From: an uncultured Bizionia sp.
GTDB lineage: Bacteria; Bacteroidota; Bacteroidia; Flavobacteriales; Flavobacteriaceae
Direction of reading: 5' to 3'
Assembly (NCBI GenBank): GCA_947496215.1
Contig: CANMCF010000001.1
Coordinates: 1 to 64,000 of the forward strand
Length of the DNA stretch: 64,000 nucleotides
The translations under genes and the position numbers were made by a program. The notes under the pieces are model-generated. The model did not search any database. It saw only the letters and a program-made list of their open reading frames with translations, and was not told the origin of the DNA. Below are positions 28,047 through 43,160 of this stretch, in pieces. Each line of letters starts with the position of its first letter. The first letter of the stretch is position 1.

Positions 28047-29624
28047 ATGTCATCAAACCGTAGATCAAAAGAAAGAATAAGAGTCAGAGAATCTGTTAGA
28101 GCACTTCAAGAGAAGTATGATAGAGGAGATAAGAAGCCATTGGAAGATTTAATGCGTGCTTGGAAAGGCATCAAGGAACTTCCACCAGAAGATGAGCACT
28201 CCTTTTTCAAATTGGGAGGTTTTCATGGAGAACCATTCAAAGGTGCTGGCTGGGGAAATAGTGCCTATTGGGGAGGTTGGTGCAATCACGGGAATGTATT
28301 GTTTCCAACATGGCATCGTGTCTACGTTCTTAAAATAGAAGAAGCCTTGCAAAGTATCAAGGGCTGTGAGGACGTTATGATGCCCTTTTGGGATGAAACC
28401 AGCGAAGAATCCATAAAACATGGTATTCCAAGGGCATTGACCGATGAGTTTTTCGAGCTGGATGGAAAACGCATTTCCAATCCATTGTTGTCTTTCACCT
28501 TTCCAATAAATGTGCATGACAACATTCAGAGTGATAACAACCTATATACCAAGCCAAAGGGTTACGAGACAGTACGTTACCCATTGTCGGGATTGGTTGG
28601 GACCGAGGAAGATCGTAAAGCTACGGCAGCACATAACGCAAAATTTCCAGATCACAATGAAAACGTGAAACTGCTCAATGAAAATGTGGTCAATTGGTTG
28701 AATTCCCATATCGTGGTAGACGGAAAGATAATACCGACCAACGTCACGAAAAAGTTCAAAGATTGCTTGAAGGCTCCAAATTATACGGTCTTTTCAAATA
28801 CGACTTCTGCCCAAGAATGGAATTTCAACCTTGAGGATGGTAGTAAACCAGTAGTGCCTTTGGAGTCACCACATAATAGCATTCATCTTTCTGTTGGAGG
28901 GTTTGATGTCCCTAACCAAGGAGATTATTCTCCAATACCAGGAGCAAATGGAGATATGGGAGAAAACAATACAGCAGGATTGGATCCTATATTCTTTTTC
29001 CACCATTGCAACGTAGATCGTATGTTTTGGCTATGGCAAAAACAAAACGGGCATACAGATGAATTGGGGATAATTTCCGAATATCCAGGAACGAATTCTG
29101 TAGACTCTCAAGGACCAACACCAGGGACTGTTCCTAATTCATGGTTGACCATGGAAACACCTTTGAACCCATTTGTCAAAGCAGATGGACAACCTTATGA
29201 CTCATATGATTGCATCAATATAGAAAAACAGTTGGGATTCACCTATGGGCCAGGTTCATTGGATGATTATGGAGCGGTTTTGAAAGCAGAGAAAATAGAG
29301 CCAGGCAAGATGGTTAGGGTGTCGAGCATCAATAGAGCACCAATAAGAGGTTCCTTTTTGGTTTCTGCCTTTGCAAACATAAATGGAGAGAGACATCACA
29401 TAGGTACGGAAGCCGTATTGAGTAGATGGAATACCCAATCTTGTGCCAATTGCCAAACGCATTTGGAGGTGAAGGCTCATTTTGGCCTACATGATTTCAA
29501 TGAAAAGGCAATTTCTAATGCGAGTTATGATATAGAAATAAAAGGTAGGGATGGAAATCTGAATGAAGAAGTCCAATTGAAGACTACCGGTGGCAAAAAG
29601 CTATTTCATATGGAAGTAAGGTAA
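28047..29624 (+). CDS. tyrosinase (type-3 copper) family protein, fungal-like
   Basis: FKLGGFHGEPF, CNHGNVLFPTWHRVYVLKIEEAL, SPHNSIH, GLDPIFFFHHCNVDRMFWLWQ. Confidence 0.92.
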   Translation: MSSNRRSKERIRVRESVRALQEKYDRGDKKPLEDLMRAWKGIKELPPEDEHSFFKLGGFHGEPFKGAGWGNSAYWGGWCNHGNVLFPTWHRVYVLKIEEALQSIKGCEDVMMPFWDETSEESIKHGIPRALTDEFFELDGKRISNPLLSFTFPINVHDNIQSDNNLYTKPKGYETVRYPLSGLVGTEEDRKATAAHNAKFPDHNENVKLLNENVVNWLNSHIVVDGKIIPTNVTKKFKDCLKAPNYTVFSNTTSAQEWNFNLEDGSKPVVPLESPHNSIHLSVGGFDVPNQGDYSPIPGANGDMGENNTAGLDPIFFFHHCNVDRMFWLWQKQNGHTDELGIISEYPGTNSVDSQGPTPGTVPNSWLTMETPLNPFVKADGQPYDSYDCINIEKQLGFTYGPGSLDDYGAVLKAEKIEPGKMVRVSSINRAPIRGSFLVSAFANINGERHHIGTEAVLSRWNTQSCANCQTHLEVKAHFGLHDFNEKAISNASYDIEIKGRDGNLNEEVQLKTTGGKKLFHMEVR

Positions 29625-31783: not shown

Positions 31784-31839
31784 AAAAAAACCTCCGTATA
31801 CCAAATCAAGTTCAATTGATTTAAGGTATACGGAGGTTT
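31784..31839 (-). terminator. intrinsic terminator within the ocd leader
   Basis: AAACCTCCGTATACC...GGTATACGGAGGTTT 15-bp perfect stem then T-run. Confidence 0.85.
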
Positions 31840-31920
31840 CCGTAAGAAACACATTCACTTTTCCAATGATCTTCCTTAAAGTTGAAAAACGAATGCGCAG
31901 CAAATTGCTACTAGGTTTCT
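31829..31920 (-). ncRNA. candidate riboswitch/attenuator leader, copy 1 (aptamer-like 31845-31920 plus anti-terminator hairpin 31829-31844)
   Basis: three-way junction: P1 AGAAAC/GUUUCU, P2 GUAGCA/UGCUGC, P3 CAUUCGUUUUUC/GAAAAGUGAAUG; covaries with copy 2. Confidence 0.75.
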
Positions 31921-41364: not shown

Positions 41365-42836
41365 TGCTTGGAATATGGGAAATATTGATCTATTGATTCA
41401 ATGGAGGCTTTGATTAGCTTTACGACATTTATGTAAAATTCCGGATTAGTCGCTTCTGTATCATCTGTTGCTTTATGATAACCAGGGTGATCTTCTTCAC
41501 TGAATGTTATGTTGGGGATGTCCTTTTCGAAAAAAGGGGCATTGTCCGATGAATGCATCCAATAGTCTTTTGTCTTGTCATCTGGGTCGTCATGACCATA
41601 GGACACCACCAGTGAACTTTTGTTGGCTACTGCTTCGATGGCAGGCTTGAACTGTGGATATTGAAATGTCCCAACTACATATATTTCATTTTTTGGATTA
41701 CGGCTAATCATATCAAAATTGATGTTCAACACGATGTTTTCCAATGGAATGTATGGTTTGGCTACAAAGTCCTTGGAACCATGTAGTCCCAATTCTTCAG
41801 CATCGAAGGCTGCGAAGACAATGGAATGTTCAGGTTGGTTTTTGGAAAAGTAATTGGCCATATGCAACAATGCCGAGGTCCCTGAAGCGTTATCGTCTGC
41901 TCCATTGTAAATGGTGTCGTTTACAATACCCAGGTGATCGTAGTGAGCACCGATGACAATATACCTTTCTGCATATGTTTTCCCTTTGATGTATCCAACG
42001 ATGTTGGTTCCTTGTCTTTCTTTCTTGGTTTTTTCATCCATAAAGGTAAATGGTACATCATAATCATTGTCGAATTGCAACAAACCAGCGTTTTCAAAAT
42101 GGGTTTTGATTAATTCTTGGGCTTCATCGTTATTACCGGTTCCTCTCCCTTTGAATGCATCGGAAGCCAATTTTTCTTGAACATCCAAAAGTGAATCATA
42201 TAAATCGGTAGCTACATTGTATTGTTCCATCTCTTTGCTGGTCATCCAATGTATGTCATCCGCAGGAGCTGCTTCCAATGTGTACCAGTAAAAATCTAGA
42301 GGAATGTTCATTTTGGCATAGTAATTCAGGTATTTCTCGTGTTCTTTATGGTCTTTCGGATAATCCAAGGCCACACTGTCCATTCCTGCCCATGAATGGA
42401 CTCCTAGTTTTCCAGTGGAATGCACGGCTCTTTCCTTTCCAGCCAAGAACATGTCGGTTCCACCTGAGGCCACCATTCCGTTTTCTGGAATGTAGGTATT
42501 GATGTTGTGTTTTCTGATTTCCAATGAAGCAACAAGGTTGATTTCATCATCTATGGAACCAGGCACATCTTCCATTACCAAGGTGGTGATGGATGGGTTT
42601 TCTGACAGCGCTTGTTTGATGTCTTTTAATGTGTTGGAATAAATGACCCCTTTCATATAGATCGTATCCTTTTCCTGCTGATTTTCCTTATAATGGAATT
42701 CAGCGACCTGACCACCTTCCAACTTCATTAAAATTCTTTGCCCCAAAGCACTTGAGTATAAGACTTCTGGAAAGAAGAATACGATTGCAACAAGTAGGAG
42801 TATGATCATTCCGATAATAATACCTGCTTTTTTCAT
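41361..42836 (-). CDS. membrane-anchored ClpP/COG3904-like domain fused to M28 peptidase
   Basis: N-terminal TM, PGSIDDEINLVASLEIRKHNINTYIPENGMVASGGTDMFLAGKERAVHSTGKLGVHSW; C-terminal GAHYDHLG, NGADDNASGTSALLHMA, FDAEELGLHGS. Confidence 0.85.
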   Translation of the reverse strand: MKKAGIIIGMIILLLVAIVFFFPEVLYSSALGQRILMKLEGGQVAEFHYKENQQEKDTIYMKGVIYSNTLKDIKQALSENPSITTLVMEDVPGSIDDEINLVASLEIRKHNINTYIPENGMVASGGTDMFLAGKERAVHSTGKLGVHSWAGMDSVALDYPKDHKEHEKYLNYYAKMNIPLDFYWYTLEAAPADDIHWMTSKEMEQYNVATDLYDSLLDVQEKLASDAFKGRGTGNNDEAQELIKTHFENAGLLQFDNDYDVPFTFMDEKTKKERQGTNIVGYIKGKTYAERYIVIGAHYDHLGIVNDTIYNGADDNASGTSALLHMANYFSKNQPEHSIVFAAFDAEELGLHGSKDFVAKPYIPLENIVLNINFDMISRNPKNEIYVVGTFQYPQFKPAIEAVANKSSLVVSYGHDDPDDKTKDYWMHSSDNAPFFEKDIPNITFSEEDHPGYHKATDDTEATNPEFYINVVKLIKASIESIDQYFPYSKQ

Positions 42837-42866
42837 AAATAGAATTTGTTAATGATTTAAAATAGA

Positions 42867-42925
42867 AAACCCTCCATACACCAAAAATCAATTTTTATTG
42901 ATTTTTTAAGGTATACGGAGGGTTT
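42867..42925 (-). terminator. terminator-like hairpin within the M28 gene leader
   Basis: AAACCCUCCGUAUACC / GGUGUAUGGAGGGUUU pairing (two G-U wobbles), weaker T-rich tail. Confidence 0.7.
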
Positions 42926-43006
42926 CCGTAAGAAACTCATTTACTTTCCCAATTTCTTCCTTAAAGCTGGAAAATAAATGTGCAACAAACTTGTTGCTAG
43001 GTTTCT
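42914..43006 (-). ncRNA. candidate riboswitch/attenuator leader, copy 2 (aptamer-like 42931-43006 plus anti-terminator hairpin 42914-42930)
   Basis: P1 AGAAAC/GUUUCU, P2 GCAACA/UGUUGC, P3 CAUUUAUUUUCC/GGAAAGUAAAUG; same 76-nt P1-to-P1 length as copy 1. Confidence 0.75.
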
Positions 43007-43160
43007 AGTGTTGCTAATTTAAGAAAAATAAGTTAATATAATTGCTTTATGATTAATGAACTTGCTTTGGGAAATATTTCAAAAGACATTTTGCTTTCAA
43101 TGAACTGTTCCAATTCTTCATTGTCTTATGCGATTCATTCCAAATCAAAGTCAATGCATT

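Follow-up and report, generated by a model that had tools for sequence, protein, structure and literature searches.

A candidate riboswitch class in Bacteroidota associated with ClpP-like, peptidase and amino-acid-enzyme-like genes

A leader RNA that occurs twice in the genome of an uncultured Bizionia sp. emerges from comparative sequence analysis as a new and well-supported cis-regulatory RNA family, uncatalogued in Rfam 15. The comparison establishes its predicted helices, a pseudoknot, the mutual exclusivity by sequence of this pseudoknot and a downstream hairpin, and the association of the leader with a recurrent set of genes. The leader very probably switches the genes that follow it on or off, and we consider it likely to be a cis-regulatory element of an uncatalogued class, with an ON-type riboswitch as the leading candidate.

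Two paralogous leaders in the Bizionia window

The window analysed here is a stretch of 64,000 nucleotides (assembly GCA_947496215.1, contig CANMCF010000001.1, positions 1–64,000 of the forward strand). Two paralogous leaders lie on its minus strand, at 43010–42864 (copy 2) and 31924–31784 (copy 1), confirming the location given in a preliminary description. Their predicted folds have energies of −56.2 kcal/mol (z −8.1 against shuffled sequences) for copy 2 and −51.1 kcal/mol (z −7.3) for copy 1. Sequence and model searches found no further copy in the genome, and a scan of the window for more diverged copies gave nothing convincing, the third match scoring 16.6 bits.

All features of both copies are on the minus strand. 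In copy 2 a putative Bacteroidota −7 promoter box, TAAATTAG (43014–43021), stands 3 nt before the conserved element, which comprises helices P1–P4, the pseudoknot and a terminator. P1 pairs AGAAAC (43001–43006) with GUUUCU (42931–42936). It is accompanied by two covarying hairpins, P2 (GCAAC/GUUGC, 42982–42997) and P3 (42938–42980), the latter with 12 pairs and a conserved 19-nt apical loop. Within this loop lie the pseudoknot 5′ strand UUAAGG (42959–42964) and a conserved block, AAGAAAUUGG (42949–42958), whose AAGA, following the pseudoknot strand, is invariant in all 54 copies collected below. The predicted antiterminator hairpin P4 (UACGGA/UCCGUA, 42914–42930), which covaries in relatives, is followed by the pseudoknot 3′ strand CCUUAA (42906–42911), located in the 5′ arm of an intrinsic terminator (42864–42925, −32.4 kcal/mol) with a U-rich tail. 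Copy 1 has the same pseudoknot strands UUAAGG (31874–31879) and CCUUAA (31821–31826), the same P4 pairing UACGGA/UCCGUA (31829–31844) and a terminator of −28.4 kcal/mol (31784–31839). A TAnnTT(T/A)G box was present in 32 of the 54 copies, nearly always ending 1–4 nt before the element, where shuffling leads one to expect four. This position of the −7 box in most copies argues that P1 lies near the 5′ end of the transcript.

Both copies measure 76 nt from P1 strand to P1 strand (AGAAAC to GUUUCU; 74 nt for GAAAC to GUUUC), and the compensatory changes listed in the preliminary description can be read in their sequences. P2 pair 4 is G–C in copy 1 and A–U in copy 2, P3 pair 5 is C–G and U–A, and P3 pair 11 is U–A and C–G, respectively. 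Two terminator pairs differ yet still pair, the changes in the 3′ arm giving G–U wobbles, and an additional C makes the P4 loop of copy 2 longer and leaves UACGGA/UCCGUA intact. The antiterminator hairpin postulated at that stage is real, corresponding to the covarying P4, but makes up only half of the antiterminated state, which also contains the pairing between the P3 loop and the terminator 5′ arm. This UUAAGG/CCUUAA pseudoknot had been missed. It had also gone unnoticed that elsewhere both downstream gene pairs belong to a single operon.

As stated earlier, copy 2 lies upstream of M28 peptidase and threonine/serine-dehydratase-like genes. The first (42836–41361) encodes a ClpP-like domain joined to an M28 peptidase and the second (41364–40396) a PALP enzyme resembling threonine/serine dehydratases (nearest NCBIfam model PRK06815, below cut-off). 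Behind copy 1 come an enzyme of the ornithine-cyclodeaminase/mu-crystallin (OCD) family (31757–30801; nearest PRK06823, below cut-off) and an enzyme with a PLP aminotransferase fold (30804–29686; nearest PRK07324, then GntC and VioD, all below cut-off). These four genes are likewise on the minus strand.

No Rfam 15 family matched the window at the gathering threshold, and at 36 related loci no match overlapped the element, the only one being to a tRNA. At permissive thresholds there were chance or sub-threshold matches only, and the sub-threshold ones were implausible. The scan of all Rfam 15 families included the guanidine-IV and T-box covariance models, neither of which matched the element, and no stem I or specifier architecture of the T-box kind was seen. 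We found no description of the leader in the open-access literature searched.

Relatives and covariation

Flavobacteriaceae, Bacteroidales and other Bacteroidota yielded another 52 copies in pattern and covariance searches, bringing the total to 54. When 201 Flavobacteriaceae genomes were searched at the DNA level, the leader turned up in four more genomes, before OCD or PALP genes in all. Scanning 85,488 species genomes with the pattern AAGGAAGA...ACGGA...TCCGTATACC returned 37 matches, 35 of which were judged real (in Aquimarina, Tenacibaculum, Bizionia, Lacinutrix, Winogradskyella, Kordia, Leptobacterium, Ancylomarina and Bacteroidales/Bacteroidia MAGs). The pattern itself dictates part of the loop and part of the terminator arm, so that finding these invariant among its matches is no evidence of conservation; covariance models were therefore built and run on other genomes (a sample of ∼2000, with E-values from a short calibration). 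Models R2 and R3 recovered diverged copies outside the reach of the pattern, and these predicted relatives constitute the decisive evidence. The distribution is patchy, with strong matches to model R1 in 8 of 400 Flavobacteriaceae genomes. In a phylum sample kept out of model building the only new match, obtained with R3, came from another family (G935). It lies 68 nt upstream of a PALP–OCD gene pair, and its P4 is altered to UGCGGA/UCCGCA. Three R1 matches (L059, L062 and L071) and one R2 match (L092) were discarded as false, being terminators alone, weak or intragenic.

Structure statistics were taken from the 54-copy alignment (A8), in which 92.6% of cells were paired. Pairing was kept in 79% of cells for P1, 92% for P2 (which is absent or weak in some diverged copies), 95% for P3, 97% for P4 and 98% (97.8%) for the pseudoknot. 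Two-sided changes were found in 31 of 34 pairs, and 11 of the 12 P3 pairs had changed on both sides somewhere. The alignment contained 311 two-sided cells, compared with 76.6±10.4 in column shuffles and 36–59 when partners were slid by 1–3 columns; such cell counts exaggerate the number of independent events, kinship being still present in the shuffle control. The case depends instead on the several different sequences that pseudoknot and P4 have in separate lineages.

In the pseudoknot six letters of the P3 loop pair with the strand directly after P4-UA, and 32 two-sided cells were counted here against 5.1±1.9 in shuffles. The alignment was not fitted to this pairing, because the pseudoknot was absent from the models used to align. 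UUAAGG/CCUUAA occurs in 34 copies, and six alternative combinations were counted as fully pairing: CUGAAG/CUUCAG (6 copies), AUAAGG/CCUUAU (3), CUAGAG/CUUUAG with one G–U (2), and CUAAGG/CCUUAG, UUAGGG/CCCUAA and UUAGAG/CUCUAA (1 each). Four copies with AUAAGG or GUAAGG opposite CCUUAA retain five of six pairs, and two with ACGAGG or UUGAGG opposite CCUCUU pair only partially.

The covariation strongly supports selection on RNA structure, as had been suggested from the two window copies, and excludes a repeat conserved at the DNA level without pairing, the outcome that the preliminary description had set against it. It is scarcely conceivable that the leader is a mobile or repeated DNA element (REP- or MITE-like) folding by chance. 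An inverted repeat and a patchy distribution would fit such an element, but the genome holds only two copies, their orientation and position before specific genes are fixed, and pairing is maintained while the sequence changes. Amino-acid enzymes downstream of a terminator also bring to mind a classical leader-peptide attenuator of an amino-acid operon. This is very improbable: 26 of the 54 copies lack any ATG-started ORF of at least 7 codons, and the ORFs of the remainder vary in position and sequence, whereas it is the structure that is conserved. No conserved short ORF with regulatory codons was found, and the leader-peptide reading was rejected for want of a conserved start codon or peptide across the 54 copies. 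The leader has a conserved and covarying structure in the 5′ UTR, as riboswitches in general do.

The predicted switch

Every copy has a hairpin further downstream whose 5′ arm consists of the 3′ strands of the pseudoknot and of P4; in most cases this hairpin is a terminator followed by a U-run. P4 plus pseudoknot on the one hand and the terminator on the other are thereby predicted to be mutually exclusive, a coupling of aptamer and expression platform like that of riboswitches. In four copies (L085, L087, L086 and L094) the competing hairpin, as read from the sequence, extends to the start codon instead; in L094, for example, CCUAAUUAUCA pairs with UGAUAAUUAGG, which holds most of the start codon.

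The terminators have predicted energies of −28 to −32 kcal/mol, compared with −6 kcal/mol for P4 and −4 kcal/mol for the pseudoknot. Because P4 and pseudoknot are so much weaker, antitermination would need kinetic help or a stabilising partner. We infer ligand sensing and an ON direction, the latter from this stability gap together with conserved letters that meet only in the antiterminated state. In the proposed mechanism the transcript would begin at or just upstream of P1, and P1, P2 and P3 would form on the nascent RNA, the P3 loop presenting UUAAGG and then the invariant AAGA...U.G block. Competition would begin once P4 and then UA-CCUUAA emerge. Should the loop take CCUUAA with P4 formed, the terminator 5′ arm would be consumed and polymerase would continue into the operon; should the downstream arm take the same nucleotides, transcription would end or, in a few relatives, the start codon would be masked by the competing hairpin. 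The antiterminated state probably requires stabilisation, most likely by a ligand at the conserved loop and pseudoknot, so that ligand would mean ON.

An OFF switch, in which the ligand would stabilise P1–P3 or block the loop and the bound state would terminate, appears rather improbable. The minimum-energy fold does hold P1–P3 and the terminator together, and the thrC, thrB and aminotransferase genes that follow certain copies might serve biosynthesis under feedback repression. However, the most conserved nucleotides (loop, AAGA and UA-C) meet only when the leader is antiterminated, and the genes linked to it appear mostly to serve degradation or export (peptidase, dehydratase and LysO). A modest chance exists that the same switch is operated not by a metabolite but by a protein or small RNA, which would attach to the conserved loop and either stabilise the pseudoknot or block it. 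The alignment cannot tell a protein-bound from a metabolite-bound loop, and the diverse downstream genes would suit a global regulator. On the other hand, genomes carry one to four copies, mostly just behind their own promoter box, no regulator gene recurrently adjoins the leader, and its self-contained pseudoknot and terminator are riboswitch-like.

ON riboswitches with intrinsic terminators have been described (PMC7736828), but the fold, conserved sequence and gene set of the leader fit no Rfam 15 class. Guanidine-IV (GGAM-1) has a potential pseudoknot, a terminator and ON-switch logic, and its proposed binding structure includes the terminator stem (PMC7736828). The leader likewise combines pseudoknot and terminator with a presumed ON logic. 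In contrast to guanidine-IV, its pseudoknot and terminator exclude each other, and it accompanies different genes, with no sugE.

Genes behind the leader

Directly behind 42 of the 54 copies stands a gene of one of three kinds, encoding a secreted ClpP-like protein, a PALP dehydratase or an OCD-like protein. ClpP-like genes come first in 29 cases (12 of them M28-fused), OCD in 9 and PALP in 4; the other first genes encode a 160-aa protein before a putative glnS (3), TolB-like proteins (2) or others (7). Aquimarina and relatives carry one leader in front of a single ClpP/M28–PALP–OCD–aminotransferase operon, which in the window and in Bizionia sp. MAG-66 is split, each part having its own leader. 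Genes annotated from their sequences as thrC with thrB-II-like, or as LysO-like exporters, are added behind some copies. Genes under the leader also include TolB-like, BNR and SusC genes, and this variety therefore indicates no single pathway. By gene context, the pairing of PALP and OCD-family enzymes resembles BhcB/BhcD, EutB/EutC and SbnA/SbnB; this likeness concerns the proteins and not the RNA, and the NCBIfam equivalog scores here are all below cut-off.

The ClpP-like domain occupies ∼210 aa at the N terminus of the M28 protein (window 42204–42836, minus strand) and is a stand-alone gene in many relatives. It has no Pfam match, contains the motifs ASGGTDMFLAG and GVHSW, and in its AlphaFold model (pLDDT 83) is similar to ClpP and to the 1510-N protease. 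No R2 match was found near three homologues, L098 and L099 (ESGA instead of ASGG) and L100; the leader is therefore not tied to every ClpP-like gene.

Our best guess from the gene set is an amino-acid-like ligand. On balance we lean towards a new Bacteroidota riboswitch class that would sense an unusual amino acid or a product of peptide degradation, turn on a ClpP-like/M28–PALP–OCD–aminotransferase–LysO pathway and swap transcriptional for translational platforms while re-making its pseudoknot. If so, the riboswitches would gain an orphan class whose structure is well supported, whose switch is defined and whose operon recurs but is unexplained, and the identity of its ligand would reveal the role of the ClpP-like/M28/PALP/OCD/aminotransferase pathway.

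In Tenacibaculum (L128, L129 and L130) a diverged leader precedes the 160-aa protein directly upstream of a putative glutaminyl-tRNA synthetase. Leaders before BNR-repeat, TolB-like and SusC-like genes (L095, L096, L132, L048 and L136) suggest a wider regulon. In the window, a tyrosinase-domain protein (28047–29624, plus strand) adjoins the OCD/aminotransferase pair.
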